A DNA stretch of 64,000 nucleotides from Carnegiea gigantea (Eukaryota > Streptophyta > Magnoliopsida > Caryophyllales > Cactaceae). The stretch covers positions 44,756-108,755 of the forward strand of contig JAKOGI010002451.1 in the NCBI GenBank assembly GCA_029747015.1, in the 5' to 3' direction. Under the pieces are notes generated by a model. The model was not told the DNA's origin. It was given only the letters and a program-made list of their open reading frames with translations, and did no database searches. Below are positions 1,228 through 63,596 of the stretch, piece by piece. A program made the translations under genes and the position numbers. Within the stretch, counting starts at the first letter, position 1. The number at the start of each line of letters is the position of its first letter.

Positions 1228-1336
1228 AGCAGGGGTACCCCGTGCCGTTTGGCACGACCGTGCCTCCTGCCCACTACACCCATTCGATTCCAGCAACCTA
1301 ACACGGCCAGACCGTGCCCTATAGCACGATCGTGCC
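1228..1336 (+). other. GC hairpin array in leader of element A
   Basis: Two copies about 72 bp apart. The first is degenerate in its first half and keeps GCACGACCGTGCC (1252-1264). The second runs from about 1300 to 1336 and ends GCACGATCGTGCC. It lies between the primer-binding site and gag. Confidence 0.75.
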
Positions 1337-3013: not shown

Positions 3014-3050
3014 GGCACGGCCTACCCGTGCCTAAAGGCACGACCGTGCC
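3014..3050 (+). other. GC hairpin module inside solo LTR S
   Basis: GGCACGG (3014-3020), 5-base loop, CCGTGCC (3026-3032), then GCACGACCGTGCC (3038-3050). Here the module is inside the LTR, near its 3' end, rather than after the primer-binding site. Confidence 0.8.
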
Positions 3051-4485: not shown

Positions 4486-5595
4486 TGATGGAGACCATCA
4501 TGAGAAGCCCAAGGACCATCAAGTTCAGCCCAAGGAGGACTCACTTAAGCTTCAAGAAGTCAAGGAAGTTGCCAAACTTTGCCGGAAATTGGCATTCATA
4601 CCCGAAGAGGTAGTGCCGCCTTCATCCAGAAATTTCCCGCTTTTTGTGTGCACTTTTGGCCTACCTAAAGTGGTCCCACAACTTGAGGCTCCACATGGTT
4701 TCGAAGTTTAAGATTTCAGCTTTCAAATAAGCCCAAGTTTGTTTAATTTGGACGTTATTTGATTGGGCAAAATATCACTCAAAGATACGTTATGCTGATC
4801 CAGTCCAGTCTGAGATAGGTGCATTGTTTGGGCCATAACTTTCAAACCGCTTATCCAAATTGAGCAAATGATCCCATTCTGGAAAATAGACTTCCAGGGC
4901 TTTCTAACAAGCCCAAGAACGCATGATTTGGCCGAGTATTCTGGAAGTTATGCTCTGTTGAAGTTGAGGCAGTTGCAAAGATTAATGCTGGGAATATGAA
5001 GAGTCTTCGGTTACATATACTTGTGTGGCTGATATTGTGCACGTTTTAGATGCTTCTAGATTGATGTAATCAGCTGCAAAAATCCTAGAATATTCCTTGT
5101 AACCTCCCCAACCCCTTTTATGATGAGTCTTTTCATTTTTCTTAGACTTTTCATTAGCTAGTTTTAATTGTTAGGAGTTATTTGAGTCCTTTGATTGTCT
5201 TTTGCTGAGTCTATAAAAGGGGAGGGGTGTGTGAAGCTAATCATTCAGAATTGTAAGAAATTTCCAAAGCAATACAAGTACTTTGAGTGTGTTTCTCAAA
5301 AGTGCAACTAAATTCCTAGTTCTATATTTTGAATTGTGCCAAATTCAAGTGGTGTTCTAGGTTCTCTTCCTTTTCCAATTGGAGTGATTCCTTGGTTAAG
5401 ACAAGAGAATTAGCCCAAGGTCAAGTCATTAAGTGGCTCCGTGAAGGATTATCTCAATTACAAGATCTTGTTCTATTCCTTTTTCTTGTGTAGTGAAATT
5501 CTTCATCCATCTCATCCATCTTTCATTTCTCTTCCCAATTTGGCTTATTTGAGTTGGAGTTTGATTTGGTTCACTTGCCACCCACATATACATCA
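4486..5595 (+). repeat. 5' LTR of element B
   Basis: 1110 bp, TGATGGAGACC to CATATACATCA. The first 225 bases encode the tail KEVAKLCRKLAFIPEEVVPP..., in frame from the start of the LTR and ending at a TAA at 4708-4710. TATA box at 5212-5219; hairpin I at 5315-5361; GTGGCTCC at 5433 and GGATTATCTC at 5446. Confidence 0.88.
5212..5219 (+). promoter_or_regulatory. TATA box of element B LTR
   Basis: TATAAAAG within a G-rich context, about 380 bases before the LTR end. The same box is in the matching LTRs of C, D, E and F. Confidence 0.7.
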
Positions 5596-5597
5596 AT

Positions 5598-5609
5598 TGG
5601 TATCAGAGC
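5598..5609 (+). promoter_or_regulatory. Primer-binding site, element B
   Basis: TGGTATCAGAGC two bases after the LTR. Confidence 0.9.
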
Positions 5610-5719: not shown

Positions 5720-5899
5720 GCACGGTGCCCCCGTGCCATACCACACGACCGTGCCATATTCATTTTCCAGAAATCTGCAAGCCGAGACGCAGCACGGTGC
5801 CCGCGTGCCACCAAGCACGACCGTGCCACGGTAATTTTCTACATTTCTTCAAGTCGAAGCATAGCACGGCCTGCCCGTGCCCCCTTGCACGACCGTGCC
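5720..5899 (+). other. GC hairpin array in leader of element B, three units
   Basis: Units start at 5720, 5792 and 5864, an exact 72-bp period. Each has GCACGG, a 5-base loop, CCGTGCC, a short spacer and CACGACCGTGCC. The sequence between cores is much less alike. The array sits between an A-rich tract (near 5668) and the gag start at 5941. The frame through it is open and in phase with gag. Confidence 0.85.
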
Positions 5900-5940: not shown

Positions 5941-8193
5941 ATGTCTACAAAGTCCACAAGAAGCGACCAAGCACGTGTGGAAGAGTTAGAAGCGCAAGTC
6001 ACTTATCTTCGAACTCAACTTGGGCAACTTTTGGAGGAAAAACGAAGGGGGGTTCATAGCCCCACTCCCTCTCGTCCTCATGAACCGGTGGTCGAATTGG
6101 AAGAAGAAGTCTTTCAATCACGAGCCAATTCTAGTGACGAAGAAGCCCCAAGGAGACGAAGGCAAGGAGGCAATATTGGTGGTGTCCGAATTGACATCCC
6201 CGAATTTGAAGGCCAACTTGACCCGGACTTATTTCTCGATTGGTTGCACACCATTGAGAGAATCTTTGAATATGAGGACATCCCGGAGGACAAGAAGGTA
6301 AAACTCGTAGCCCTTAAACTCCGCAAATATGCTTCAATCTGGTGGGCTAACCTTGGAGCGAAAAGAGCAAGGAATGGAAAGAGAAAAATCAGAACTTGGG
6401 CCAAAATGAAAGAAAAACTCAAGGCCAAGTTTCTTCCCTCTCACTATGTGCAAGACAATTATCTCAAGCTCAATCGACTCAAGCAAGGATCCAAGAGTGT
6501 GGAAGAATACACTCGGGAGTTTGAACAACTCCTACTCAAATGCGACTTGAAAGAAGATGACTCTCAAACCTTGGTAAGATACTTAACCGGACTTGATGAG
6601 TCTATTGCTCATATTGTTGAGTTGCAACCATATTCATCCCCTGATGACTTGAGTTCTCTAGCCTACAAGGTAGAGCAACAAAAGAAATCAAAGGGAAAGA
6701 GTGTCCTTTCCAAGTCTCTCTCTCGTCCTTACCCCACACAAAAGCCTCCGTACTCCCCTCCTCGTCCACAAAATTCCCCACCATCACAACCCAAAAACAC
6801 CACTCCAACCCCTCCAAAACCCTCCACACAAGAACCCAAATCAAAGGACAAGGTTCGTTGCTTTCGATGCCAAGGTATGGGACACTATGCATCTGAGTGT
6901 CCAAACAGGAGGATCGTTTCCCTAGCGGAGTACCAAGAAGCATGTGATGAACATGCCCATGACGAAGAAGAAGAAGAGCACCATGAAGAAGGAAGTTTGA
7001 AAGAAGTTGAAGAAGGCCCCGATGAAGGAGAATTGCTAGTTATCCGCCGGGCCTTGAGTGGAATTGCCACTCAAAAGGACATTGAGCAAAGAGAAGCCAT
7101 TTTTCACACCAGGTGTACCGTAGGAGACAAGGTTTGTTCCCTTATCATTGATGGAGGTAGTTGTGCTAACGTTGCCTCAAAGACTATGGTGGACAAACTC
7201 AAGCTGCAAGTCTCTCCTCGTCCAAATCCCTACACCATACAATGGTTGAATCAAGGCAAAGGTTTGCAAATTACTCACCGTTGTCTTGTTTCCCTTTCAA
7301 TTGGGAAAAACTATAAAGATGAGATTTGGTGTGATATAGTCCCCATGGATGCTTGCCATATATTATTGGGTAGACCATTGCTTTTTGATAGAAGTGTCAT
7401 CCATGATGGCCGGATGAACACTTACTCTTTTCTCAAGGACCGTAAGAAAATCACTCTTACCCCTCTCAAAAGTCCTTCCCCCCTCTAAGCCAAAAGACAA
7501 TCCTCATTTGGAAGTCTTCTTTACTACTCTTCTCAAATCTGAGCACCATGAGTATGAGTCTTTTAAAGACTTGATACTTTTACAAGAAGAGTCTAAGCCA
7601 CATCTCCCTCACATCCACTACTCACCCCTCTCCTACAAGCCTATCACCATGTTTTTCCACAAGAAATTCCACATGGCCTTCCCCCTCCAAGATCTATCCA
7701 ACACAAGATAGACCTCGTTCCCGGATCCGTACTTCCAAACAAGCCGGCATACCGGATGTCTCCAAGCGAAACACAAGAAATCCAGAGACAAGTGGATGAT
7801 CTCTTGTCCAAGGGTTTAATTCGGGAAAGTCTAAGCCCATGTGCCGTGCCCGCCCTCCTTGTTCCTAAGAAGGATGGTAGCATGCGTATGTGTGTTGATA
7901 GCCGGGCAATAAACAAGATCACTATCAAGTACCGGTATCCTATTCCCCGATTGGAAGATCTATTGGATGAATTACACGGAGCTGCTATCTTTTCTAAGAT
8001 TGATCTTAGAAGTGGCTATTACCAGATTCGCATTTTTGAATGTGATGAATGGAAAACCGCCTTTAAGACTAAAGGAGGTTTATATGAGTGGCTTGTAATG
8101 CCATTCGGATTTACTAATGCCCCGAGCACTTTTATGAGACTCATGAACCAAGTTCTCAAGCCCCTCATTGGAACTTGTGTTGTTGTTTACTTT
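5941..8193 (+). pseudogene. Element B Gag-protease and start of RT
   Basis: The start at 5941 (MSTKSTRSDQ) is the first that matches relatives; an upstream ATG at 5725 would add a Cys/His-rich piece read from the hairpin array. Gag: coiled coil, Arg-rich linker, capsid-like region, CCHC knuckle near 6860. Protease: LIIDGGSCAN near 7141. The frame ends at 7488; a frameshift follows, another lies near 7690, and RT resumes ([36 protein letters not shown]). It stops at 8193 just before the catalytic aspartates, where element C is inserted. Acts in reverse transcription of element RNA; dead copy. Confidence 0.85.
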
Positions 8194-9346
8194 TGATGTA
8201 GATGTGGGTGGGCAAGTGAACCAAATCAAACTCCAACTCAAATAAGCCAAATTGGAAAGAGAAATGAAAGATGGATGAGATGGATGAAGAACTTCACTAC
8301 ACAAGAAAAGGGATAGAACAAGATCTTGTAATTGAGATAATCCTTCACGGAGCCACTCAATGACTTGACCTTGGGCTAATTCTCTTGTCTTAACCAAGGA
8401 ATCACTCCAATTGGAAAAGATAGAGAACCTAGAACACCACTTGAAATTAGCCAAATTCAAGATATAGAACTAGGAATTTTTGAGACACAAATGAGAATCA
8501 CTCTCAAAGGTGCTTGTATTACTTTGGAAATCTCTTACAATGCTGAATGATTAGCTTCACATGCCCCTCCCCTTTTATAGACTCAGCAAAAGACAATCAA
8601 AAGACTCAAATAACTCCTAACAATTAAAACTAGCTAATGAAAAGTCTAAGAAAAATGAAAAGACACATCATAAAAGGGGGTGGGGGAGGTTACAAGGAAT
8701 ATTCTAGGATTTTTGCAGCTGATTACATCAATCTAGAAGCATCTAAAACGTGCACAATATCAGCCACACAAATATATGTAACCTAAGACTCTTCATATTC
8801 CCAGCATTAATCCTTGCAACTGCCTCAACTTCAACAGAGCATAACTTCCAGAATACTCGGCCAAATCACGCGTTCTTGGGCTTGTTAGAAAGCCCTGGAA
8901 GTCTATTTCCAGAATGGGCTCATTTGCTCAATTTGGATAAGTGGTTTGAAAGTTATGGCCCAAACAATGCACCTATCTCAGACTGGACTGGATCAGCATA
9001 ATGTATCTTTGAGTGATATTTTGCCCAATCAAATGATGCCCAAATTAAACAAACTTGGGCTTATTTGAAAGATGAAATCTTAAGCTTCAAAAGCACATGG
9101 GCCCTCAAGTTGTGGGTCCACTTGAGCTTGTCCAAAATGGTCACAAAAATCGGGTTCCGCAGGGATGAATTCGGCACCAAATTTCTAGCAAAGCTTAACC
9201 TCTTTTTGACCTCTCCATAGTGTCGCGAGTCTTTGAACTCACCTAAGAAGACCAAATAGGCACATTTCCATGCTTGATCTTCTTTGACCCTTTTCTTCTT
9301 TGAAATTGGACTTGAATAAAAATGATGCATATGGAAATATGCATCA
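8194..9346 (-). repeat. 3' LTR of element C
   Basis: 1153 bp. On the minus strand it begins TGATGCATAT, a 4-base spacer and ATATGCATCA: a 10-bp inverted repeat at the LTR start. The first ~290 bases encode the EFKDSRHYGEV tail (9330-9061). Confidence 0.88.
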
Positions 9347-11181: not shown

Positions 11182-11361
11182 GGCACGGTCGTGCAAGGGG
11201 GCACGGTCAGGCCGTGCTATGCTTCGGCTGAAGAAAATGCAGACAAGTAGAGTGGCACGGTCGTGCTTGGCGGCACGAGGGCACCGTGCTCCGTCTCGAC
11301 TTGAAGATTCTTGGAAAAAGAATATGGCACGGTCGTGTGTTGTGGCACGGGGGCACCGTGC
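11182..11361 (-). other. GC hairpin array in leader of element C, three units
   Basis: Units at 11182-11217, 11254-11289 and 11326-11361: an exact 72-bp period as in B and D. Confidence 0.85.
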
Positions 11362-11484: not shown

Positions 11485-11486
11485 AT

Positions 11487-12631
11487 TGATGTAGATGTGG
11501 GTGGGCAAGTGAACCAAATCAAACTCCAACTCAAATAAGCCAAATTGGAAAGAGAAATGAAAGATTGATGAAGCAACTTCACTAAACAAGAAAAAGGGAT
11601 AGAAAGATCTGTAATTGAGATAATCCTTCAACGGGAGCACTACAATGACGACTTGGGCTAATTCTCTTGGCTTACCAAGGAATCACTCCAATTGGAAAAA
11701 AAGATCGAGAACCTAGAACCACCACTTGAATTAGCAAATCAAGATCTAGAACTAGGATATTTTTGAGACACAAAGGGAACACTCTAAAGGTGCTTGTATT
11801 GCTTTGGAAATTTCTTACAATTCTGAATGATTAGCTTCACATGCCCCTCCCCTTTTATAGACTCAGCAAAAGACAATCAAAGGACTCAAATAACTCCTAA
11901 CAATTAAAACTAGCTAATGAAAAGTCGAAGAAAAATGAAAAGACTCATCATAAAAGGGGTGGGGGAGGTTACAAGGAATATTCTAGGATTTTTGCGGCTG
12001 ATTACATCAATCTAGAAGCATCTAAAACGTGCACAATATCAGCCAACACAAAATATATTGAACCTAAGACTCTTCATATTCCCAGCATTAATCCTTGCAA
12101 CTGCCTCAACTTCAACAGAGCATAACTTCCAGAATACTCGTCCAAATCACGCGTTCTTGGGCTTGTTAGAAAGCCATGGAAGTCTATTTTCCAGAATGGG
12201 CTCATGTGCTCAATTTGGATAAGCGGTTTGAAAGTTATGGCCCAAACAATGCACCTATCTCAGACTGGACTGGATCAGCAAAACGTATCTTTGAGTGATA
12301 TTTTGCCCAATCAAATGGTGTCCAAATTAAACAAACTTGGGCTTATTTGAAAGCTGAAATCTTAAACTTCAAAACCATGTGGAGCCTCAAGTTGTGGGTC
12401 CACTTGAGCTTGTCCAAAAATGGTCACAAAAATCGGGTTCCGCAGGGATGAATTCGGCACCAAATTTCTAGCAAAGTTTAACCTCTTTTTGACCTCTCCA
12501 TAGTGTCGCGAGTCTTTGAACGCACTTAAGAAGACCAAATAGGCACATTTCCATGCATGATCTTCTTTGACCCTTTTCTTCTTTGAAATTGGACTTGAAT
12601 AAAAATGATGCATATGGAATATATGCATTCA
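11487..12631 (-). repeat. 5' LTR of element C
   Basis: 1145 bp, paired with 8194-9346. It carries many small indels relative to its partner in the R-U5 part. Encodes the U3 tail at 12628-12362 with an intact frame. Confidence 0.87.
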
Positions 12632-14919
12632 ACTTGATGATCTTTGGTCCATAGCAAGACCGAGGAGGAGCATGCCAAGCATTTGCAACAAGTTTTGGAG
12701 ATTCTTTCACAAGAACAACTTTATGGCAATATGGAGAAATGCTTTTTCTTCACTCCTCAAGTGGTATTCTTTGGTTTCATTGTTTCCGCCCAAGGCCTCC
12801 AAGTTGATGAAAGCAAGATCAAGGCTATTCAAGAGTGGCCAACTCCTACATCCATCACTCAAGTAAGGAGTTTTCATGACCTAGCCTCATTTTACCGGAG
12901 GTTCATTAGAAATTTCAGCACAATTATGGCTCCTATGACTGAGGTAATTAAAGGCAAAGAGTTTTCATGGAACGAGCAAGCACAACAAGCTTTTGAAGAG
13001 ATCAAGAAGAAGCTCACTAGTTCCCCCGTTCTAGCCTTGCCCGACTTTACCAAGTCTTTGAAGTAGAGTGTGATGCATCCGGGGTAGGAATTGGAGTTGT
13101 CCTATCTCAAGAGAAGAGACCCATTGCCTTTTTCAGTGAGAAGCTCAACGATGCCAAGAAGAAGTACTCCACCTATGACAAGGAGTTTTATGCAATCATT
13201 AGAGCATTGGAGCATTGGCGTCATTACTTTGTTGGAGGTGAATTCATCCTTCATTCTGACCATGAAGCTCTCAAATACATCCACGGACAACATAAGCTCA
13301 ACCCTAGACATGCTAAATGGGTAGAGTATCTTCAGTCCTTCCACTTCACTATCCAACATAAGGCGGGAACTCTCAACAAAGGAGCTGATGCATTATCAAG
13401 AAGGTACTTATTACTCTCTACTTTAAGTACTAAAGTACTTGGATTTGAAGTTGTTAAGGATTTGTACCCAAAAGATGATGATTTCAAGGACATTTTTGAG
13501 AAGTGTCTTAAGCACCCCCATGGGTTGTTCCACTTAGAAGATGGGTTCCTATTCAAAGGTTCACGCCTTTGTATCCCTCAATGTGGATTTCGTGAACTAC
13601 TTATCCAAGAGCTACATGGAGGAGCCCTAGCTGGCCATTTTGGTGTCGAGAAGACTAGGTCAATGTTGAAGGAACATTACTATTGGCCTAAGATGTCAAG
13701 AGATGTAGAGCATTTCATCAAAAGATGTTCTACTTGTCAAATGGCTAAGAGCCATTCTTTGCCCCAAGGATTGTATTCTCCACTTCCCATTCCTCAAGCA
13801 CCTTAGGAAGATATTAGCTTGGATTTCATCACGGGTTTACCTAGAACCCAAAGGAACAAAGACTCCATTATGGGGGTTGTGGATCGATTCTCCAAGATGG
13901 CGCATTTCATCCCTTGCCACACCACTAATGATGCTACTCAAGTGGCTAGTCTTTATTTCAAGGAGATTGTGAGACTACATGTCATTCCAAAGAGCATGGT
14001 ATCCGATCGTGACTCCAAGTTTCTTAGTCATTTTTGGCTAACTCTATGGCGCAAATTGGGTACTCAACTCAAGTTTAGCACTACTTGTCACCCCCAAACT
14101 GATGGCCAAACTGAAGTCACTAATAGGACTTTGGGTACCTTACTTCGAGTCCTAGTGAAGAAGCATTTGAAGAATTGGGATGAGTTGCTACCACATGCCG
14201 AGCTTGCATTCAATCGAGTGCCTAGCAAGTCGACCCAACTCTCTCCATTTCAAGTTGTCTATGGCTACAATCCCAAGAGTCCCTTGGAACTTGTTCCCAT
14301 TCCAACTCCCACAAAATTTAGTTGGGAAGCTGAAAAAAGAGCCAAGGAGATCCAAGAACGTCATGCAAGAGTTAGAGATAACATTGCCAAGGCTAATGAG
14401 AGAGCCATGCAAAGCGCCAACAAGCATCGCAAGGAGGTACATTTTCAGCCAGGAGATTTGGTATGGCTTCACATGAGGAAGGAGCGTTTCCCTTCAAAGA
14501 GAAAATCTAAGTTGATGCCGCGTTCCGATGGTCCATTTGAAATCCTTGAGAAGGTTGGGACCAATGCATACAAGGTTGATCTACCTGGAGATTATGGAGT
14601 TTCGGCTACCTTCAATGTCTCCGATCTTAGCCCCTTTTTCGATGATGAGCCCCTTCCTAGTTTGAGGGCAAACTTTCACTTACCCGGGGGGAATGATGGA
14701 GACCATCGTGAGAAGCCCAAGGACCATCAAGCTCAGCCCAAGGAGGACTCACTCAAGCTTCAAGAAGTCAAGGAAGTTGCCAAACTTTGCCGGAAATTGG
14801 CGTTCATACCCGAAGAGGTAGTGCCGCCTTCATCCAGAAATTTCCCGCTTTTTGTGTGCACTTTTGGCCTACCTAAAGTGGTCCCACAACTTGGGGCTCC
14901 ACATGGTTTTGAAGTTTAA
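12632..14919 (+). pseudogene. Element B RT end, RNase H and integrase
   Basis: It continues B past element C. RT thumb ([25 protein letters not shown]), a frameshift near 13050, RNase H ([23 protein letters not shown]), integrase HHCC finger (H-x-H and CSTC near 13735), a stop at 13804, the integrase core ([24 protein letters not shown]) and the C-terminal domain (PGDLVWLHMRKERFPSKR, SDGPFEILEKV). The frame passes the polypurine tract and reads 226 bases into the 3' LTR to 14919. Integrase would insert the DNA copy into chromosomes; this copy is dead. Confidence 0.87.
14685..14693 (+). promoter_or_regulatory. Polypurine tract, element B
   Basis: CGGGGGGAA next to the 3' LTR start; also part of the open integrase frame. 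Confidence 0.75.
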
Positions 14920-15786
14920 GATTTTAGCTTTCAAATAAGCCCAAGTTTGTTTAATTTGGACGTCATTTGATTGGGCAAAATATCACTCAAAGATACGTTA
15001 TGCTGATCCAGTCCAGTCTGAGATAGGTGCATTGTTTGGGACATAACTTTCAAACCGCTTATCCAAATTGATAAAATGAGCCCATTATGGAAATTAGACT
15101 TCCAGGGCTTTCTAACAAGCCCAAGAACGCGTGATTTGCCCGAGTATTCTGGAAGTTATGCTCTGTTGAAGTTGAGGCAGTTGCAAGGATTAATGCTGGG
15201 AATATGAAGAGTCTTCGGTTACATATACTTGTGTGGCTGATATTGTGCACGTTTAGATGCTTCTAGATTGATGTAATCAGCTGCAAAAATCCTAGAATAT
15301 TCCTTGTAACCTCCCCCACCCCTTTTATGATGAGTCTTTTCATTTTTCTTAGACTTTTCATTATCTAGTTTTAATTGTTAGGAGTTATTTGAGTCCTTTG
15401 ATTGTCTTTTGCTGAGTCTATAAAAAGGGGAGGGGCGTGTGAAGCTATTCATTCAGCATTGTAAGAAATTTCCAAAGCAATACAAGTACTTTGAGTGTAT
15501 TTCTCAAAGGTGCAACTAAATTCCTAGTTCTATATCTTGAATTGTGGCAAATTCAAGTGGTGTTCTAGGTTCTCTTCCTTTTCCAATTGGAGTGATTCCT
15601 TGGTTAAGACAAGAGAATTAGCCCAAGGTCAAGTCATTGAGTGGCTCTGTGAAGGATTATCTCAATTACATGATCTTGTTCTATTCCTTTTTCTTGTGCA
15701 GTGAAATTCTTCATCCATCTCATCCATCTTTCATTTCTCCTCCCAATTTGGCTTATCTTGAGTTGGAGTTTGATTTGGTTCACTTG
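14694..15786 (+). repeat. 3' LTR of element B, truncated
   Basis: Matches 4486-5595 but stops at GGTTCACTTG (15786), where the minus-strand LTR of D begins. The lost 3' end seems to be at 28551-28575. Confidence 0.85.
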
Positions 15787-16976
15787 TGATGTATATGTAG
15801 GGGGGGTAAGTGAACCAAATCAAACTCCAACTCAAAATAAGCCAAATTGGGAAGAGAAATGAAAGATGGATGAGATGGATGAAGAATTTCACTACACAAG
15901 AAAAAGGAATAGAACAAGATCTTGTAATTGAGATAATCCTTCACGGAGCCACTCAATGACTTGACCTTGGGCTAATTCTCTTGTCTTAACCAAGGAATCA
16001 CTCCAATTGGAAAAGGAAGAGAACCTAGAACACCACTTGAATTTGCCACAATTCAAGATATAGAACTAGGAATTTAGTTGCACTTTTGAGAAACACACTC
16101 AAAGTACTTGTATTGCTTTGGAAATTTCTTACAATGCTGAATGAATAGCTTCACACGCCCCTCCCCTTTTTATAGACTCAGCAAAAGACAATCAAAGGAC
16201 TCAAATAACTCCTAACAATTAAAACTAGCTAATGAAAAGTCTAAGAAAAATGAAAAGACTCATCATAAAAGGGGGTGGGGGAGGTTACAAGGAATATTCT
16301 AGGATTTTTGCAGCTGATTACATCAATCTAGAAGCATCTAAAACGTGCACAATATCAGCCACACAAGTATATGTAACCGAAGACTCTTCATATTCCCAGC
16401 ATTAATCCTTGCAACTGCCTCAACTTCAACAGAGCATAACTTCCAGAATACTCGGCCAAATCACGCGTTCTTGGGCTTGTTAGAAAGCCCTGGAAGTCTA
16501 TTTTCCAGAATGGGCTCATTTGCTCAATTTGGATAAGCGGTTTGAAAGTTATGGCCCAAACAATGCACCTATCTCAGACTGGACTGGATCAGCACAACGT
16601 ATCTTTGAGTGATATTTTGCCCAATCAAATGATGTCCAAATTAAACAAACTTGGGCTTATTTGAAAGCTGAAATCTTAAACTTCAAAACCATGTGGAGCC
16701 TCAAGTTGTGGGACCACTTTAGGTAGGCCAAAAGTGCACACAAAAAGCGGGAAAATTCGGGATGAAGGCGGCATTACGTCTTTGGGCATGAACGCCAATT
16801 TCCGGCAAAGTTTTGCAACTTCTTTGACTTCTTCATGGTGTCTAAAGTCCTTGAACTCACATAATAAGAGAAAATATGAGAGTTCCCATGCACGCTCTTG
16901 TTTGACACTTTTCTTCTTGGAAGTTGACCTTAAATAAAAATAAAAATAAAAATGATGCATATGAGAATATGCATCA
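15787..16976 (-). repeat. 3' LTR of element D
   Basis: 1190 bp. Begins on the minus strand with the TGATGCATAT palindrome and ends CATATACATCA. A short TTTTTA repeat follows the palindrome. The first 301 bases are coding for the end of the Gag-protease frame. Confidence 0.88.
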
Positions 16977-18772
16977 TACTCCCCGGGTGGTTTTGAGTTT
17001 GTCCTCAAACTCAATGGGTTAGCAAGCTTCTCAAGAAAGGGGTCACGCTCACAATATGGGAGCTTTTGGGGAAGGAGGTCACAGGGCATCACCTCTAGAG
17101 AGATATAGAAGAGGGTGAGGGGAGGATGATAAAACGGGTCATACCTGGTGAGGAGAAGAGGCGGAAGTGGGAAATCTTCTTTGGGGGCAAGGGTTTGGGA
17201 AGGATGAATGAGGGTTAAGGCTTGTCGGTCTTTTTGTGGCTTGGGGGTTTGGCACGATGGAATAGGGGCCAAGGTGATTTTCTTCTCATCCTTAATAAAG
17301 GAGTAGGTGTTGAGGCGCCCATGATGAATTACATGGCGATCAAACATCCATGGTCTACCCAACAATATATGGCTTGCATCCATAGGAAGAATGTCACACA
17401 ATATCTCATCCTTATAGTGGTCTTCAATAGAAAGAGAAATGAGGCACTGATGAGAAATGTTTATACCTTTGCCTTGATTTAGCCATTGGATGCTATAAGG
17501 CGTAGGATGGGGTGTAGTCTCAAGTTTGAGCTTGTCCACCATGGTTTTGGATGCAACATTTGTACAACTACCTCCATCGATGATGAGGGTACAAACTTTC
17601 CCTTGAATAGTGCACCTTGTGTGGAAAATCGCCTCTCTTTGCTCCAAGCCTTCTTGAGTAGCAAATCCGCTCAATGCTCGCCTAATGACAAGCAACTCAC
17701 CTTCATCGGGGCCTATGATAACCTCTTCTTCTTTTTCCTCCAAACTTTCCTCTTCTTCATGGTCATGCTCCTCAAAAGAAGCTTGGTACTCAGCCAGGGA
17801 AACAATCTTCTTGTTAGGACACTCAGATGCAAAATGTCCCATACCTTGACAACGGAAACAACGAACCTGGTCTTTTGGCCGTGAGGGCACTTTTGTGGGA
17901 GGTGGAGGGGTGATGGGAGGGACACTTTTGGCGGGTGAGGGGGTTTGAATTTGTGGGGGAAAGTAAGGTGATTCTTGAGAAAAAGGACGGGAAGGAGTCT
18001 TAGAAAAGATGCTCTTTTCCTTAGATTTCTTTTGTTGCTCTACCTTATAGGCTAGAGAACTCAAGTCATCTAGGGATGAGTAAGGTTGCAACTCAATTAC
18101 ACGAGCAATGGACTCATCAAGACCGGTTAAGTATCTTACCAAGGTTTGTGAGTCGTCTTCTCTCAAATCACATTTGAGTAGGAGTTGTTCAAACTCCCGA
18201 GTGTATTCTTCTACACTCTTGAATCCTTGCTTGAGGCGGTGGAGTTTCAGATAATTATCTTGCACATAGTGTGAGGGAAGAAACTTGGCCTTAAGTTTTT
18301 CTTTCATTTTGGCCCACGTTCTAATTTTCCCTTTCCCATTTCTTGCTCTTTTCGCTCCAAGGTTAGCCCACCAGATTGAAGCATATTTGCGGAGTTTAAG
18401 GGCTAAAAGTTTTACCTTTTTGTCCTCCGGGATGTCCTCATATTCAAAGATCCTCTCAATGGTGTGCAACCAATCGAGAAATAAGTCCGGGTCAAGTTGG
18501 CCTTCAAATTCGGGGATGTCAATTCGGACACCACCAATATTGCTTCCTTGCCTTCGTCTCCTTGGCACTTCTTCGTCACTAGAATTAGCTCGAGATTGAA
18601 GGACTTCTTCTTCCGATTCGACCACCGGTTCATGAGGATGAGAGGGAGGGGGGCTATGAACCCACCTTCGTTTTTCCTCCAAAAGTTGCCCAAGTTGAGT
18701 TCGAAGATAGGTGACTTGCGCTTTTAATTCTTCCACACGTGCTTGGTCGCTTCTTGTGGACTTTGTAGACAT
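16676..18772 (-). CDS. Element D Gag-protease with LTR-encoded tail
   Basis: An intact 698-codon frame, the only long undamaged retroelement frame here. Start chosen at 18772 (MSTKSTRSDQ) by match to B and C. Residues 1-45 coiled coil; about 95-230 capsid-like; a proline-rich linker; CCHC knuckle CFRCQGMGHFASEC near residue 305; protease LIIDGGSCTN near residue 398; then about 100 residues encoded inside the 3' LTR from 16976 (EFKDFRHHEEVKEVAKLCRKL...). It makes particles and cleaves Gag but has no polymerase or integrase, so mobility would depend on other elements. Upstream ATG at 18988 is an alternative start. Confidence 0.88.
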   Translation of the reverse strand: MSTKSTRSDQARVEELKAQVTYLRTQLGQLLEEKRRWVHSPPPSHPHEPVVESEEEVLQSRANSSDEEVPRRRRQGSNIGGVRIDIPEFEGQLDPDLFLDWLHTIERIFEYEDIPEDKKVKLLALKLRKYASIWWANLGAKRARNGKGKIRTWAKMKEKLKAKFLPSHYVQDNYLKLHRLKQGFKSVEEYTREFEQLLLKCDLREDDSQTLVRYLTGLDESIARVIELQPYSSLDDLSSLAYKVEQQKKSKEKSIFSKTPSRPFSQESPYFPPQIQTPSPAKSVPPITPPPPTKVPSRPKDQVRCFRCQGMGHFASECPNKKIVSLAEYQASFEEHDHEEEESLEEKEEEVIIGPDEGELLVIRRALSGFATQEGLEQREAIFHTRCTIQGKVCTLIIDGGSCTNVASKTMVDKLKLETTPHPTPYSIQWLNQGKGINISHQCLISLSIEDHYKDEILCDILPMDASHILLGRPWMFDRHVIHHGRLNTYSFIKDEKKITLAPIPSCQTPKPQKDRQALTLIHPSQTLAPKEDFPLPPLLLTRYDPFYHPPLTLFYISLEVMPCDLLPQKLPYCERDPFLEKLANPLSLRTNSKPPGEYDAYSHMHHFYFYFYLRSTSKKKSVKQERAWELSYFLLLCEFKDFRHHEEVKEVAKLCRKLAFMPKDVMPPSSRIFPLFVCTFGLPKVVPQLEAPHGFEV
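16977..16987 (-). promoter_or_regulatory. Polypurine tract, element D
   Basis: CCCGGGGAGTA on the minus strand; also read as codons of the Gag-protease frame. Confidence 0.7.
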
Positions 18773-18813: not shown

Positions 18814-18993
18814 GGCACGGTCGTGCAAGCGGGCACGGGCAGGCCGTGCTATGCTTCGACTTGAAGAAATGCAGAAAATTACCGTGGCACGGTCGTGCTT
18901 GGTGGCACGGGGGCACCGTGCTGCGTCTCGGCTTGCAGATTTCTGGAAAATGAATATGGCACGGACGTGTGGTATGGCACGGGGGCACCGTGC
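18814..18993 (-). other. GC hairpin array in leader of element D, three units
   Basis: Units at 18814-18849, 18886-18921 and 18959-18993, again 72 bp apart. Confidence 0.85.
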
Positions 18994-19132: not shown

Positions 19133-20321
19133 TGATGTACATGTGGGGGGGTAAGTGAACCAAATCAAACTCCAACTCAAAATAAGCCAAATTGGGAAGA
19201 GAAATGAAAGATGGATGAGATGGATGAAGAATTTCACTACACAAGAAAAAGGAATAGAACAAGATTTTGTAATTGAGATAATCCTTCACGGAGCCACTCC
19301 ATGACTTGACCTTGGGCTAATTCTCTTGTCTTATCCAAGGAATCACTCCAATTGGAAGAGGAAGAGAACCTAGAACACCACTTGAATTTGCCACAATTCA
19401 AGATATAGAACTAGGAATTTAGTTGCACTTTTGAGAAACACACTAAAAGTACTTGTATTGCTTTGGAAATTTCTTACAATGCTGAATGAATAGCTTCACA
19501 CGCCCCTCCCCTTTTTATAGACTCAGCAAAAGACAATCAAAGGACTCAAATAACTCCTAACAATTAAAACTAGCTAATGAAAAGTCTAAGAAAAATGAAA
19601 AGACACATCATAAAAGGGGGTGGGGGAGGTTACAAGGAATATTCTAGGATTTTTTCAGCTGATTACATCAATCTAGAAGCATCTAAAACGTGCACAATAT
19701 CAGCCACACAAATATATGTAACCTAAGACTCTTCATATTCCCAGCATTAATCCTTGCAACTGCCTCAACTTCAACAGAGCATAACTTCCAGAATACTCGG
19801 CCAAATCACGCGTTCTTGGGCTTGTTAGAAAGCCCTGGAAGTCTATTTTCCAGAATGGGCTCATTTGCTCAATTTGGATTAGTGGTTTGAAAGTTATGGC
19901 CCAAACAATGCACCTATCTCAGACTAGACTGGATCAGCATAACGTATCTTTGAGTGATATTTTACCCAATCAAATGACGTCCAAATTAAACAAACTTGGG
20001 CTTATTTGAAAGCTGAAATCTTAAACTTCAAAACCATGTGGAGCCTCAAGTTTTGGGACCACTTTAGGTAGGCCAAAAGTGCACACAAAAAGCGGGAAAA
20101 TTCGGGATGAAGGCGGCATTACGTCTTCGGGCATGAACGCCAATTTCCGGCAAAGTTTTGCAACTTCTTTGACTTCTTCATGGTGTCTAAAGTCCTTGAA
20201 CTCACATAATAAGAGAAAATATGAGAGTTCCCATGCACGCTCTTGTTTGACACTTTTCTTCTTGGAAGTTGACCTTAAATAAAAATAAAAATAAAAATGA
20301 TGCATATGGGAATATGCATCA
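19133..20321 (-). repeat. 5' LTR of element D
   Basis: 1189 bp, close match to 15787-16976 with scattered substitutions. Confidence 0.88.
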
Positions 20322-20325
20322 TAAA

Positions 20326-20654: not shown

Positions 20655-20755
20655 GCACGGTGTCTCCGTGCCTACCAGCACGACCGTGCCATATTCATTT
20701 TTCGTCAAGTCGAGACGCAGCACGGTGTCCCCGTGCCATACCACACGACCGTGCC
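20655..20755 (+). other. GC hairpin array in leader of element E, two units
   Basis: Units at 20655-20690 and 20720-20755 (65-bp spacing). Confidence 0.82.
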
Positions 20756-35463: not shown

Positions 35464-35500
35464 GGCACGGCCACACCGTGCCTAAGTGCACGACCGTGCC
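35464..35500 (+). other. GC hairpin module inside first LTR of L
   Basis: GGCACGG, loop CCACA, CCGTGCC (35464-35482), then GCACGACCGTGCC (35488-35500). One unit, 287 bases before the LTR end. Confidence 0.82.
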
Positions 35501-35900: not shown

Positions 35901-36188
35901 ATGAGAATTGGGAAAGATATGTCCCTTAGAAAAATCCTCAAACTACAAAAAGAGCTTGAAGCATTTGACCACAGAACACAAGAAATAAACTGGGAAATGC
36001 AACAGCAAGAAAGAGAACTTGATCTACTCGCCCTCTGGTTTGAAGAAAGAAGAAAATCCAATCAGCCCTTTGTTTCACCAGAGATAGATCAAAGTCACAA
36101 AGTTAGTGAGGTTACCATCAACTTACCTCCCAAGTTTGATGAACATGAAGATGAACAAGAGGAAATCAAGGAGGAAGAAAAGGAGGAT
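35901..36188 (+). CDS. Element L small protein, first part
   Basis: The start at 35901 (MRIGKDMSLRKILKLQKE) is the first ATG after the primer site. The first ~60 residues look like one long charged helix or coiled coil (KELEAFDHRTQEINWEMQQQ); then comes NLPPKFDEHE and an acidic EEIKEEEKE run. Element M interrupts it at AGGAT, and the frame continues unchanged at 49387. I recognise no known family; there is no zinc knuckle or enzyme motif. Confidence 0.75.
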
Positions 36189-37322
36189 TGATGGAGGTCC
36201 ATCCCCTAACATGATCCATGGCCATCAAGGGAGCCCAAAAGATCCAAACCTCATGTCCAAGATGCAAGAGATCAACCTAAGGGAACAAGGAAATTATTTC
36301 CTCAAAACTGGAATTTCAGGCGTGCACAAACCCGGTTTTGTGCACGTTATTTCCTAAACTTCCCAAGGCTAAAATGGGGTTGCAGGAAGCCTAAGTTTAA
36401 GTTCAAGATGTGCTCTTTCCATCAAGACCTCTTGCAAGTCATTTGGAGTTCATTTGATACCTCAAAACCTCAAGCGAAGTTAATCACTACATCCTGGCGC
36501 TGAACTGGGCAGGGCTGAAACAAGAGGTTGTTTGGTGGCCCATTTCTCCTCTATTTGGGTTGAAACTTTTATGGTTTGAAAGTACTTTAAAAATATTATC
36601 AAGTGACCATAAAAAACCTCAGCCAAATTACACTCATGAGGAGCTATTAACCACCAAAACAAGGGAAGAAACACCCTTTTAACCGGGTAATGGGGCAGCC
36701 GGGTACAAGAGAGAAGAGTGAGGTGTTTTATTGCTCTAACCCATGCTTAGCCACTTGCAAGAGTCATCATGAAGGGTACTTAGCTGCCAAGAAGCTTCCA
36801 TTCACCCCTAGGCCGACACATCATCCTCAAGATTAGCATTGAAGAGGTGTCAAGTGGAGGATGCATCTACCCTTTTTTGTTTTGATATGATCTATGTATT
36901 TTTGCCTAGTTTAGCTTATAGTGCAACCTAGGGCCTATGATTTGTACTTGGAACTTTTGTATTAATACCCCCACAAGCCCCTTGGCCGGCCACTAAGCTT
37001 GTTTATTGAATGAAAGTTGAGCTTTGCTCCTTTGAATCCTCAAACTCTCTTCTAGCTTATCTCATCTTTTGGCCAAGTTGAGTGGTGATCTAGTAAGAGT
37101 CTTAACTTCCTTCTTGGTGGTGTTTCTGTATCCAAGAGGTTGTTAAGGGCCCTAACATCAAACCTTGGTGGTGTTTCTGTATCCAAGGTAGGTGTTAGTT
37201 CCGGTTCTATCCTTCCCAACTCAAGGTGAGTTTGTGAATTCAAAGTTGCCTTGTTGTTACCTTCCATTGCTTTCATCTCACCCTCGTTCCTATCCTCTTG
37301 GGTTTTCCTTGAGGATACATCA
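36189..37322 (+). repeat. 5' LTR of element M
   Basis: 1134 bp, TGATGGAGGTCC to GGATACATCA. The first 168 bases are open in one frame (SPKDPNLMSKMQEINLREQG...KPGFVHV), again an LTR head with coding character. Weak TATTAATA at 36960. Confidence 0.9.
37112..37198 (+). other. R-U5 hairpin II pair in element M LTR
   Basis: First: TCTTGG (37112-37117), loop TGGTGTTTCTGTAT, CCAAGA (37132-37137). Second: CCTTGG (37163-37168), same loop, CCAAGG (37183-37188), with outer CTAACA / TGTTAG (37152-37157, 37193-37198). Two copies with different stems in one LTR. Confidence 0.65.
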
Positions 37323-37326
37323 TATT

Positions 37327-37338
37327 TGGTATCAGAGC
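37327..37338 (+). promoter_or_regulatory. Primer-binding site, element M
   Basis: TGGTATCAGAGC, four bases after the LTR. Confidence 0.9.
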
Positions 37339-37452
37339 TAAGGCTTCCCTAGGCCCAAGCTTACTGCCCAGCACCCTTCCAAACACCCCAAACACATTCC
37401 CCCTCAAAAAACACCAAACCGTGCTCCACGGTTTTTCACCATCCAGAAAATC

Positions 37453-37659
37453 GGCACGGTCAGCCCGTGCCAAAGAGCACGACCGTGCCACCCTCACATT
37501 CCAGCCACACTTCCTTCTCCATCCACACCCAGTACTTCAGCACGGCCACCCTGTGCCATGTCGCACGACCGTGCCACCCCTTTCCCAGCCACATCTCAAC
37601 TTCGCTCCCGTCCAGAACCAGAGCACGGCCACCCCGTGCCTAACAGCACGCCCGTGCCA
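37453..37659 (+). other. GC hairpin array in leader of element M, three units
   Basis: Units at 37453-37489, 37540-37575 and 37623-37659, spaced 87 and 83 bp. Spacers do not match those of B, C and D, while the cores do. Confidence 0.85.
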
Positions 37660-38326
37660 CATTCAGGCCGTAAAGTTCCTGCTTGTTTCAACGTGAGCAC
37701 TACTAGTATGACCATGGAGGAGAAGTTTGAGGCTCTTATGAGGAATTATGAGGCCTTGAAGCTACAGAATGAAGAGATCAAAGGTCAGAACGAGTATTTG
37801 AGGCGATAACTTGGAGACTCCTTGAAGCAAAAACGAACTCTGAACCGGAAGCAAGAGAAGCCCCACACTTGAGCTCGTCAAGTGAAGAGGAGGCTTATGG
37901 AAGATCAAGAAGAGGAAGGCGGACAACCTCTCACCAAGGAGACATTCGAGTGGAGATTCCAGAATTTGAAGGGAAACTAGACCCCGATGAGTTCTTGGAA
38001 TGGATGCAAACCGTTGAGAGAATCTTTGACTACAAAGAGATTTCCGAGGGAAATAAGGTAAAACTTGTGGCCCTTAAACTTCGTAAATATGCTTCTCTTC
38101 GGTGGTCCAACCTTTGTGCTAAGAGAGTTAGGCAAGGGAAGGGAAAGATTCGAACATGGGAAAAAATGAAAACCAAACTCAAAGCCCGTTTCCTACCCCC
38201 ATCTTACCTACAAGACAATTATTCCCAACTTCACAATCTGATGTAAGTCTCAAGGGTAGGAACAACCCAAGCTAACTTACAACAGGAACACAACCAAAAC
38301 AAGTGGGAAACTCTCGAACCAGGGGT

Positions 38327-38363
38327 GGCACGGTCGTGCTTCAAGGCACGGGGGCACCGTGCC
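38327..38363 (-). other. GC hairpin module inside solo LTR N
   Basis: GGCACGGTCGTGC (38327-38339) and GGCACGG...CCGTGCC (38345-38363), close to the LTR's 3' end as in S and L. Confidence 0.8.
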
Positions 38364-38671
38364 AACTTGCTGCCTAAGCACACCTAGTTTGTGATTTTCA
38401 CGGTTTTTGAGATGGCTTTTGTGTTTGGGCTCAAAACTGAATCAAAGCAAGAATTCTTGGCCTTGATTAAGCTTGAAATGAATATGAAAAGAAAAAAAAG
38501 AAGAGAGGAATGAAGTTCACTGATTAGAACATGAAAAAAGGAGAGCTTTGGTTTAAGGAACCCAAAGCTAACTTCATGAACTCTAAGTGAATTCAATGGA
38601 ATCTGGATAGTTCTAAGCCTTGTGATTAGATAAGATACACCACTAATCACTTAGCTTAGGGCCCTTAACCT

Positions 38672-38703
38672 TTGATTAGGATACAGATGCACCACCTAAT
38701 CAA
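38672..38703 (-). other. R-U5 hairpin II in solo LTR N
   Basis: TTGATTAGG (38672-38680) and CCTAATCAA (38695-38703), a perfect 9-bp stem; on the minus strand the loop reads TGGTGCATCTGTAT. Confidence 0.65.
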
Positions 38704-43769: not shown

Positions 43770-43779
43770 AAGGGGAGGA
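43770..43779 (+). promoter_or_regulatory. Polypurine tract, element M
   Basis: AAGGGGAGGA before the 3' LTR. Confidence 0.75.
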
Positions 43780-45445: not shown

Positions 45446-45456
45446 TTCTCCCCGGG
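45446..45456 (-). promoter_or_regulatory. Polypurine tract, element O
   Basis: CCCGGGGAGAA on the minus strand. Confidence 0.7.
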
Positions 45457-47379: not shown

Positions 47380-47425
47380 TTTGGCTTTGGAATAGAGAAA
47401 GAGTGTTTTGGGACGGGGAGAGGTA

Positions 47426-47535
47426 GGCACGGTCGTGCTAGCAGGCACGGCCTGACCGTGCTGAGCTACTGGCGAAGAAGTGCTGGGCTGGAATTATGGC
47501 ACGGTCGTGCTCAGGTGGCACGGTGTGCCCGTGCC
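47426..47535 (-). other. GC hairpin array in leader of element O, two units
   Basis: Units at 47426-47461 and 47499-47535 (73-bp spacing); a further GGGCACGGC half copy at 47548. Confidence 0.82.
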
Positions 47536-47652
47536 AACTTTCTGGTTGGGCACGGCTGAGATTTTGTGGAGGATGTGTTTGGGCTGTTTTTGTGGTTCTT
47601 GTGTTTGGGAGTGTGTTTGGGTGATGGAAGCTTGGCCAAGATGGTAGCCTAA

Positions 47653-47664
47653 GCTCTGATACCA
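47653..47664 (-). promoter_or_regulatory. Primer-binding site, element O
   Basis: GCTCTGATACCA on the plus strand, three bases from the LTR. Confidence 0.9.
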
Positions 47665-49832: not shown

Positions 49833-51779
49833 TGATGGAGACCCCTCCATGCCCTTTGATTTAAAAAATCAAATCAAGCTAGGTAATTTCATTTTGGTGA
49901 TTAAAGGGTGAATAATTCATCCTTGTTTTGTTTAAGGACCTAAAACAGCATGTCAGGTTTGTTTTCAGCAGCAAACCCGGTTTTGAGAGGTTAATTACGT
50001 CAAACTCTTTAAGGTTTAAGTCCAATATTTTGCATTGGGATTAAAGTTCAAGAAGTCAGCTTTGCAACAAAAAAAGTTTCATCCCATTTGGACTTCATTT
50101 GCCCCCTCAAATTAGCTAATAAACCCAAGGTGTCAAAACTGCCCAGCAGGGTCAGAATGTACCCGGTTTTGTTCTTTATATTTCTTATGATATATTTTGG
50201 TTTAACTCTTATATTTTTACATATTTTGGGTCCCCAAGATGTTAGCTACGTGGTCCAATTGATAAAATCAAGTTAGGTCAAGTGGAAGATGAAGAACCAG
50301 GTCAATCTTCCAAACCGTACAGACTGAGACTCAGTTCAGACCAGCCCAGCCATTTTGATATTTTCATCAGGAAAATGAACTCCAAATTGAGTAATTCCAA
50401 TTGGAGCTGTTAGAGGACTTCTTAAGCTTTCCAACCATGTGTGGCAAGACAAGTTATGACCACGTTTGCCCTGGGAAACGTGGCCTGCAATCAGACCCTG
50501 CATTCTGCCAGCACAACCCGGTTTAAGCATGAGGTGTTTTTCCTTCTCAAGTGGGTTTTCCTAGTTGGTTGGTTGCTTTCCTACATCACACCACGTCCAA
50601 GGCTTGCTAGAAACACAATAATTTGCTGCTGAGAAGGCTTTGAAATGTGTGAACCAATGAGAACACAAAGGAGAAAACAGCACCATGCAATCTGATTGGT
50701 GAGCCAAAAAGGGGAAGGCACTTTACGGCTGTCCAATAGGCATTCAGCAAGCAAATCAGCATGTTTAAGTTTGGTTTATGAGTAGATTAATGTATAATAA
50801 GTATTAATAATGTTTTACTTCATGTTTAGAATGTATTAGACTAGTTTAAGCAAGCTTGTATTTTAAATTAGCGCAAATCAGCTTGTTTAGCTCTTAATAC
50901 CTTTCCTCCTTACGAGGGAAAGGTGAGGTGTGTGCTTGTGTGGCTGCTAGCTTGCTTATTTAAAGGCACACGGCCCCCCCTTTAACATATATCAGATTTG
51001 AGTTAAAAACCTCTTTGAGAGCTTTGTGCTTTCATGCCTTAGTGCAACCAAATTCCAACTTGCTTATCCTTAATCTAGTCAATTAAGGTGCTGATCAAGT
51101 AGGTTTTAATCTTGAATTAAGTGGTGTTTCTGTATCTTAATCCAAGGTTAAAGACTCTAAACTTAATTTTGGTGGTGATATCTGTATCCAAACATTGAGT
51201 TTAGCACTATCCAACTACCTTGATAATCTTCAAGTATTCAAAGAGAAGTGAAGGAAGATTTGCTAGCTTAAATTGAGTTAGTGAATTCTTATCTTTAATT
51301 CTCCTTCATTCCACACATTTACAAACCTTCATTCATCCATTACCATGCTGATGCAAGGCTAAGGATAGCCCCTTTGGCTTAGCTTTCCACACAAACACAA
51401 AGCCAAACTCAAACCGTGAAACACCACAAAACCGGCCATGCTTGGCAGCAATATGGCACGGCCACACCGTGCCTAAGTGCACGACCGTGCCACCCTTGCC
51501 GTGTGATTTTTTTTCTTGTTTGCTTCGTGTTTAGCTTGGTTATCTTCTACCCTTCATACGTCCAACACAATCCCCTTGAAGATATCCCAAAGTTCCCTTT
51601 AGATTTTTACTTAGAATCCCTTGATTGTAAGTTCCATTCCTCCCTCACATGTTTGATGCCTCACAACCATCATATTATGTGTCCACTTTCCTTGGTTTTC
51701 CCTTGATTGTATCTACCTTTGGATTATAAGGTTTCACTCTTAATTTGAGTTTTAGCCTAGACCCTCGGCAGGTACATCA
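49833..51779 (+). repeat. Middle LTR of element L
   Basis: 1947 bp, near-identical to 33842-35787; serves as 3' LTR of the first unit and 5' LTR of the second. Confidence 0.9.
51455..51491 (+). other. GC hairpin module inside middle LTR of L
   Basis: Same sequence as 35464-35500. Confidence 0.82.
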
Positions 51780-52498: not shown

Positions 52499-54005
52499 GT
52501 CAAGTGGAAGATGAAGAACCAGGTCAATCTTCCAAACCGTGCAGACTGAGACTCAGTTCAGACCAGCCCAGCCATTTTGATATTTTCATCAGGAAAATGA
52601 ACTCCAAATTGAGTAATTCCACTTGGAGCGGTTAGAGGACTTCTTAAGATTTCCAACCATGTGTGGCAAGACAAGTTATGACCACGTTTGCCCTGGGAAA
52701 CGTGGCCTGCAATCAGACCCTGCATTCTGCCAGCACAACCTGGTTTAAGCATGAGGTGTTTTTCCTTCACAAGTGGGTTTTCCTAGCTGCTTGGTTGCTT
52801 GCCTACATCACACCACGTCCAAGGCTTGCTATAAACACAATAATTTGCTGCTGAGAAGGCTTTGAAATGTGTGAACCAATGAGAAAACAAAGGAGAAAAC
52901 AGCACCATGCAATCTGATTGGTGAGCCGAAAAGGGGAAGGAACTTTACGGCTGTCCAATAGGAATTCAGCAAGCAAATCAGCATGTTTAAGCTTGGTTTA
53001 TGAGTAGATTAATGTATAATAAGTATTAATAATGTTTTACTTCATTTTTAGAATGTATTAGACTAGTTTAAGCAAGCTTGTATTTTAGATTAGCACAAAT
53101 CAGCTTGTTTAGCTCTTAATACCTTTCCTCCTTAGGAGGGAATGGTGAGGTGTGTGCTTGTGTGGCTGCTAGCTTGCTTATTTAAAGGCACACGGCCCCC
53201 CCCTTGTAACATATATCAGATTTTGAAAGAAAACCTCTTTGAGAGCTTTGTGCTTTCATGCCTTAGTGCAACCAAATTCCAACTTGCTTATCCTTAATCT
53301 AGTCAATTAAGGTGGTGATCACGTAGGTTTTAATCTTGAATTAAGTGGTACTTCTGTATCTTAATCCAAGGTTAAAGACTCTAAACTTAAGTTTGGTGGT
53401 GATATCTGTATCCAAACATTGAGTTTAGCACTATCCAACTACCTTGATAACCTTCAAGTATTCAAAGAGAAGTGAAGGAAGATTTGCTAGCTTAAATTGA
53501 GTTAGTGAATTCTTATCTTTAATTCTCCTTCATTCCATACATTTACAAACCTTCATTCATCCAGTACCATGCTGATGCAAGGCTAAGGATAGCCCCTTTG
53601 GCTTAGCTTTCCACACAAACACAAAGCCAAACTCAAACCATGAAACACCACAAAACCGGCCATGCTTGGCAGTAATATGGCACGGCCACACCGTGCCTAA
53701 GTGCACGACCGTGCCACCCTTGCCGTGTGGTTTTTTTTTTCTTGTTTGTTTCGTGTTTAGCTTGGTTATCTTCTACCCTTCATACGTCCAACACAATCCC
53801 CTTGAAGATATCCCAAAGTTCCCTTTAGATTTCTACTTAGAATCCCTTGATTCTAAGTTCCATTCCTCCCTCACATGTTTGATGTTTCACAACCATCATA
53901 TTATGTGTCCACTTTCCTTGGTTTTCCCTTGATTGTATCTACCTTTGGATTATAAGGTTTCACTCTTAATTTGAGTTTTAGCTTGAACCATCGGCAGGTA
54001 CATCA
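52233..54005 (+). repeat. Third LTR of element L, 5' truncated
   Basis: Lacks the first ~178 bases; otherwise like 49833-51779 and ends CATCA next to the GCTTG duplication. Confidence 0.88.
53679..53715 (+). other. GC hairpin module inside third LTR of L
   Basis: GGCACGG...CCGTGCC and GCACGACCGTGCC, same as in the other two LTRs. Confidence 0.82.
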
Positions 54006-54591: not shown

Positions 54592-54699
54592 GCACGGTCG
54601 TGCTTTAAGGCACGGTGTAACCGTGCTGAGCTGCGGGAATGGGGGTGCTGCAGGTTAGGGGTGGCACGGTCGTGCGGGTGTGGCACGGTGTGCCCGTGC
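54592..54699 (-). other. GC hairpin array in leader of element K, two units
   Basis: Units at 54592-54626 and 54663-54699 (71-bp spacing). Confidence 0.82.
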
Positions 54700-63487: not shown

Positions 63488-63596
63488 GGCACGGTTGTGC
63501 CGTGGGACACGGGCTTCCCGTGCCAAGTTACTGCCGTGACAAAAGTGCAGAAAAGAGGTGGCACGGTCGGGCCTTAAAGCACGGGTAGGCCGTGCC
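63488..63596 (-). other. GC hairpin array in leader of element P, two units
   Basis: Units at 63488-63524 and 63559-63596 (71-bp spacing). Both are more diverged than in other elements, but GGCACGG / CCGTGCC pairs remain. Confidence 0.78.

Follow-up and report, generated by a model that had tools for sequence, protein, structure and literature searches.

Why does one GC-rich compound palindrome recur in LTR retrotransposons whose surrounding DNA is otherwise unlike, and is it read as DNA or as RNA? The question is raised by a 64-kb stretch of the saguaro (Carnegiea gigantea) genome, here called the window, which has 43% GC and is densely filled with nested LTR elements. A first-pass annotation of this window had described the motif as a double hairpin in the RNA leaders of the elements and had proposed that it may be the signal by which non-autonomous RNAs are packaged. 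The evidence assembled here leads us to favour a different reading, to which we assign a probability of roughly 0.6, namely that the module is a DNA-level cis-regulatory (promoter or enhancer) array of LTR retrotransposons.

The module is built as GCACGG-N5-CCGTGC-C-N5/6-GCACG-NN-CGTGC, and this one form is found at all 14 places in the window to which the motif had been assigned, so that sequence and positions are confirmed throughout (14/14). The array pattern stands as well, with the earlier count of about 26 units becoming 27 modules in a scan that allows one or two substitutions per part; 18 of the 27 match the scan pattern exactly and nine carry one or two substitutions. In 100 Markov simulations of the window the mean number of modules was 0.0. 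Exact GGCACGG..CCGTGCC stems number seven in the window, and exact GCACGACCGTGCC is present 18 times (10 on the plus and eight on the minus strand). A CAG lies exactly 7 bases upstream in 79 of 145 modules, and most of the arrays sampled below consist of one to three modules with two palindromes per module. The features of the window are collected in Table 1.

Table 1. Modules and accompanying features of LTR elements in the 64-kb window.
Feature	Position	Strand	Remark
Module 1, family A leader	5720..5754	+	
Module 2, family A leader	5792..5826	+	72 nt on; one arm base different
Module 3, family A leader	5864..5898	+	72 nt on
Primer-binding site TTGGTATCAGAGC	5597..5609	+	directly after LTR 4486-5577 (partner LTR 14694-15786)
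TATA box GAGTCTATAAAAGGGG in 5' LTR	5212..5217	+	508 nt upstream of first module
gag frame (Retrotrans_gag, Ty3_capsid, zf-CCHC)	5941..7488	+	from ATG after modules
Two modules (1229, 1301)	1229..1335	+	primer site at 1089
One module, LTR-like copy, family N	3015..3049	+	
Three modules, family A leader	11183..11361	-	element LTRs 8193-9344 and 11486-12628
Three modules, family A leader	18815..18993	-	element LTRs 15787-16978 and 19133-20323
Two modules, family A fragment	20655..20754	+	primer site at 20531
One module, LTR copy, family S	35465..35499	+	327 nt upstream of primer site
Three modules, family K leader	37454..37657	+	element LTR 36182-37322
One module, family X	38328..38362	-	about 490 nt downstream of GGCTATATAAG
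Two modules, family M leader	47427..47534	-	element LTRs 44318-45446 and 47666-48783
One module, LTR copy, family S	51456..51490	+	328 nt upstream of primer site
One module, LTR copy, family S	53680..53714	+	
Two modules, leader, family M relative	54592..54699	-	
Two modules, family Z leader	63489..63595	-	between primer site 63703 and gag
First modules of the nine places with exact TTGGTATCAGAGC	1229, 5720, 11361r, 18993r, 20655, 37454, 47534r, 54699r, 63595r		
Places with a 72- or 73-nt period	5720-5898, 11183-11361, 18815-18993, 47427-47534, 54592-54699, 63489-63595, 1229-1335		

Nine of the window places have an exact TTGGTATCAGAGC primer site, with 108-140 nt from its start to that of the first module; the modules at 3015, 38362r and 53680 lie within LTR-like copies. 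Of eight window frames scanned, five matched Ty3-type families (gag, reverse transcriptase or integrase) above the cut-off, and a sixth match fell below it. Tandem leader modules recur with a period of 72 or 73 nt in several window families, the DNA between them looking different; the spacing is 83-86 nt in family K and 65 nt between 20655 and 20720, and independent cases are few for the pattern as a whole. Helical phasing of the spacings was considered and rejected (resultant length 0.54 at 10.5 bp and 0.58 at 10.75, from only 10 deduplicated spacings). In the region 36182-49381, the element at 44318-48783 appears to split the 3' LTR of the element at 36182 near position 44320.

Across the saguaro genome the exact full module has 2,980 matches (1,460 + 1,520), some of them overlapping within one array, and the reversed module pattern used as a control has none. 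The stem GGCACGG-N3..8-CCGTGCC is matched 8,259 times and its reversed control 5,897 times, which we put down to tandem units; since the reversed stem control is not empty, the full module is the cleaner genome test. Forty-three loci were sampled, 23 from the first stem matches on C1 and C2 and 20 from module matches with differing loop or spacer, and because all were selected for stem or module they are uninformative on the frequency of the module among LTR elements. A lipase frame in one of them, L005, shares 99% identity over 80% of its length with Carnegiea gigantea Cgig2_008012. With the modules masked, the flanks of 75 CAG-marked arrays from these loci and the window fall into four groups that take in 73 of the arrays (I, 28 arrays; II, 19; III, 17; IV, 9), plus a pair of 2. 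Even at loose settings the best flank matches between groups are 28-56 nt long, with a lowest E-value of 1.6e-9, and we read them as mostly unmasked extra arms. The four groups have little in common except the module, in agreement with the earlier observation that flanks are unlike while the core is alike.

Pfam matches place seven group II loci in Ty1/copia (L002, L006, L008, L013, L018, L020 and L021). Group I, an ATHILA-type gypsy group, combines an ATHILA-family ORF with protease and gag of Ty3 type (L004 and L009, by Pfam), and group III comprises the Ty3 families of the window. None of the five group IV frames scanned gave a Pfam match; its primer site is TGGCGCCGTTGCCGGGGA or close to it, which is also present in group I, and for this reason the two groups may be kin despite their differing flanks. 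We take this primer site to be typical of Athila-type gypsy elements. That the module belongs to LTR elements is borne out in 42 of the 43 sampled loci, all selected for stem or module, which fall into flank groups containing LTR elements, L001 joining the copia group. The only sampled locus with flanks matching no group beyond the module, L019:4867-4900, may represent a further carrier lineage.

The groups were then compared by the position of the module relative to the promoter and the primer site. In the copia group (II), 18 of 19 arrays have a TATA-type box 139-195 nt downstream of the start of the CAG-marked module. The distance from the module to the downstream primer site is 479-536 nt in six arrays, 904 nt in L008 and 1,152 nt in the second L013 array. 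Counted from the 5' end of the LTR, L020 and L006 have their first arm at 33-35 nt and the CAG-marked module at about 110 nt, and neither shows a TATA before the first arm. Being near the LTR start, with a TATA box downstream and none before the first arm, the copia module lies in U3. Eight of nine group IV arrays have a CTATTTAA-type box 64-118 nt downstream of the point where the module starts. None of the 28 group I arrays matched the TATA patterns used, and the primer site of this group lies 969-1,031 nt downstream of the module in 10 arrays; L004 and L009 have further modules that follow the gag-protease ORF and precede the ATHILA-family ORF (PF03078), and L017 shows the same order, but with a second ORF lacking a Pfam match. 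For group III, a TATA-like box was found about 310-670 nt upstream of the module in families A, M, S and X; such a box was not found for window families K and Z, and family N has only a weak TATAAG far upstream. The module lies about 327 nt before the primer site in three group III arrays (including those at 35465 and 51456, where it is inside the LTR), and the distance is 1,354 nt in L038, where the flank beyond the module resembles, by eye, a reversed family A LTR end. Relative to the primer site, 33 of the 75 arrays are sense-only, none is antisense-only, two are both, and 40 have no primer site in range.

These positions divide the earlier claim of an RNA-leader location, which is supported in the window's Ty3 group by the primer site, by gag and by the TATA-like box upstream, but does not extend to copia. 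They also bear on the proposed function. A leader signal for RNA dimerisation or packaging, on which non-autonomous elements draw in trans, would suit the window's Ty3 modules, each of which is placed either in the stretch from primer site to gag or in an LTR that has a TATA-like box upstream of it, and would agree with the stable RNA folds predicted for single modules and with the sense orientation seen wherever it is readable. Short 5' palindromes are described as supporting Ty3 RNA dimers in yeast in the available part of PMC11381356. The leader location expected of such a signal is found in the window's group and is lacking in copia, whose arrays sit in U3, outside the leader; furthermore, copia and gypsy Gag come from different protein families, so that one common packaging tag is unlikely.

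A packaging signal would also be expected to keep its pairing by compensatory changes, and such changes are nearly absent. Genome-wide, a change at arm base 3 was accompanied by the matching change in the partner arm in 0 of 44 cases and a change at arm base 2 in 0 of 37; because first and last arm are partners in the predicted RNA folds, the nested partner was freed as well, and compensation was again 0 of 44. In a set of 120 unique modules, paired changes on both sides make up one of 94 changed arm cells under the side-by-side fold and three of 88 under the nested fold, and a looser scan of 136 units with 173 changed pairs yielded 170 that were one-sided, one both-sided and paired, and two both-sided and unpaired. 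An excess of paired over unpaired changes, the test named beforehand, was thus not seen, which speaks against a pairing constraint. The double hairpin has to be redrawn as well, as the fold predicted for each of four single modules (-14.4 to -25.9 kcal/mol, z -2.6 to -5.4) is nested, arm 1 pairing with the last arm and arm 2 with arm 3, with a 5-6 nt bulge.

The 120 modules were found by their arms, so that arm conservation (1.3-2.0 bits) is partly built in, whereas the loops, which were not selected, carry 0.05-0.57 bits. The loops would be the kissing part of a dimerisation signal, and their variability counts against that role. Among the 120 modules, A is never seen at loop base 1 and T is seen at loop base 5 in four; T..A across the loop occurs 14 times, and bases facing each other across the loop pair no more than in shuffled sequences. 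This symmetric limit on loop bases 1 and 5 fits a palindromic protein site. Young copies are poor at showing compensation, and the stronger point is that the same arm letters are found with differing loops across groups with unlike flanks. As a general account, leader packaging is rejected because of the copia U3 arrays and the nearly absent compensation, and we regard a packaging role for the module as unlikely.

Some small pairing signals do exist. Spacer base 2 and the next-to-last spacer base pair in 74 of 120 modules (one of 2,000 shuffles as high), the outer pair up10-dn3 in 61 (22 of 2,000) and R3-A4 in 104 (39 of 2,000), all by shuffles that ignore kinship. We read the spacer signal as lineage structure, because spacers of ACGT or ATGT type are characteristic of whole groups, and the R3-A4 signal as two CpG-type changes. 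A change to T at arm base 4 is common and leaves a G-U pair possible; one amplified lineage with this change (GCATGGCCTAGCCGTGCCACGCGG...) supplies many of the listed GCATGG modules, for example C13:1656471 and C32:1185248, and several listed GCATGGCCTAGCCGTGCCACGCGG copies are about 6 kb apart, as expected of LTR pairs.

The small pairing signals, together with the sense orientation wherever readable, could also be accommodated by an RNA element active anywhere in the transcript, in leader or 3' UTR, and serving nuclear export, stability or translation. The U3 region is present at the 3' end of LTR-element RNA, so that U3 copies would act there, and the arrays of groups I and III also precede reading frames. 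Constant sense orientation and the leader site make an RNA role possible. Yet the arms are fixed and the loops variable, there is almost no compensation, and a TATA-type box stands close downstream in groups II and IV, and we judge such an element rather improbable. A shared leader peptide was rejected, since some gag-frame ORFs cross the modules but their translations differ between families.

Two further explanations were weighed. The module could be a host-silencing structure, either as GC-rich inverted repeats feeding small RNAs or as CpG-dense palindromes that set the methylation state. The predicted RNA fold of the L020 copia array is strong (-64.6 kcal/mol, z -7.5), a CpG is present in every arm, the most frequent arm change is R3 G>A (16), and GCATGG modules, with T at arm base 4, are found at 278 places in all; silencing nevertheless leaves unexplained why arm sequence and spacing are common to groups with unlike flanks, and appears very unlikely to us. 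A functionless small inserted repeat or satellite carried by LTR elements seems more improbable still. An element can acquire a short repeat by chance and the arrays are tandem in several families, but the orientation is steady, the position is near-constant within each group, the four flank groups share little but the module, and loops are free where arms are fixed.

Constraint was also considered within elements. Divergence between the LTRs of ten pairs is 7/128 at CpG and 11/560 at other positions in the modules, and 57/711 and 293/10,861, respectively, in the flanks; modules therefore diverge about as much as, or slightly less than, their flanks. Inserted copies look little constrained, and constraint acts on replicating lineages and is seen only between lineages.

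The reading that we prefer, a DNA-level regulatory palindrome, draws on the U3 position before TATA, the fixed arms and free loops, the symmetric base limits and the scarcity of compensation, which together indicate a DNA-binding dimer. The palindromic half-sites (GCACGG and its complement), held at fixed spacing, would most likely be recognised by a dimeric sequence-specific host DNA-binding protein, and the array, lying within roughly 700 bases of the retrotransposon promoter, would drive or gate transcription. The same module would have reached Ty1/copia and Ty3/gypsy through exchange between elements or would have arisen by convergence. Sequence, positions, orientation, the four flank groups and the near lack of compensation are direct observations; protein binding, transcriptional effect and mode of spread are inferred. 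The leader copies of group III are compatible with a DNA site, because the leaders of LTR elements can hold activators, as described in the available part of PMC2829016. Several observations count against a regulatory palindrome: the sense orientation is constant, which an orientation-free enhancer does not need; the group III module is downstream of the TATA-like box, and the ATHILA-type group has no TATA match; the modules diverge only slightly less than their flanks between paired LTRs; and there are the small pairing signals.

We suggest only tentatively, and with some doubt, that one trans-acting host factor controls several major LTR lineages through this one shared compound site, whether passed between Ty1/copia and Ty3/gypsy or convergent. 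If this is true, the module would be a shared regulatory password. The occurrence of an identical compound site in both copia and Ty3-type elements within a single plant would indicate that regulatory sites are able to cross superfamilies. The module also provides a single bait sequence for seeking the putative binding factor. In addition, it offers a caution against calling a palindrome in the leader of a retrotransposon a packaging signal before other lineages are checked.

Traces of the module were sought beyond saguaro. The viral contigs searched gave no match, a translated search with the family A leader gave none with an E-value up to 1 among 209 candidates, and neither Rfam nor the tRNA search gave a match. 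The ENA protein P0005 is 62% identical to the family Z gag, and its upstream peptide fits two translated modules, so that the module may be present in another data set. No report was found in a literature search for GCACGACCGTGC, nor one of this motif among the titles listed for GGCACGG and retrotransposon or, by title, in the literature on Carnegiea LTR retrotransposons; publications beyond the literature searched could exist. The GC-rich arrays at L001:6688-6784 and L014:529-644, with GCACGG and CCGTGC arms, a different spacing and a common GGCTTCGGCCACCGG stretch, are apparently another repeat.

Among known systems, the dimerisation palindromes of Ty1 and Ty3 resemble the module in being short palindromes in the 5' region of the RNA (available parts of PMC11381356 and PMC4974528), the Ty3 site lying in the apical part of a short hairpin (PMC11381356). 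Unlike these sites as described there, the saguaro module has variable loops and fixed arms, and its copia copies lie outside the leader.

The Su(Hw) insulator of gypsy sits in the untranslated leader. The symmetric activator in the copia 5' UTR and box I of Tnt1, both cited in the available part of PMC2829016, are like the module as protein sites that are symmetric or arrayed and lie in U3 or leader. In contrast to the module, each of these three is known from one element, and the likeness is one of type.

The RM boxes in the Ty1/copia LTRs of Sireviruses, in the available part of the report by Bousios et al. (2010, PMC2829016), have a palindromic CGG-CCG core and form clusters both upstream of TATA and before ENV. 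That part describes motifs that vary between elements, several being near-identical in distant species, and at least eight copies in each RM-bearing element; it reports the motif as absent from classic Ty1/copia and identifies no common binding factor. Like the RM boxes so described, the saguaro module is palindromic, repeated and CpG-bearing with a CGG-CCG core, lies in the LTR upstream of TATA in groups II (18/19) and IV (8/9), and is found before the ATHILA-family ORF of L004 and L009 as RM boxes are before ENV. Unlike them, it is a single compound motif whose spacing is fixed and whose polarity is sense, it is carried by both Ty1/copia and Ty3-type elements, and it has a leader site in one group; group I has no TATA matches (0/28), and the TATA-like boxes of group III are upstream of the module. 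The copia carrier L020 also differs from Sireviruses, with a length of 5.4 kb, about 100 nt separating the end of the ORF and the 3' LTR, and one visible polypurine tract; it is the sole copia carrier tested for a linker with several polypurine tracts, and is without such a linker. Later work is said to have dealt with the palindromes of maize Sireviruses. By this comparison, the saguaro module is similar in kind to the Sirevirus RM boxes but spans Ty1/copia and Ty3-type groups.
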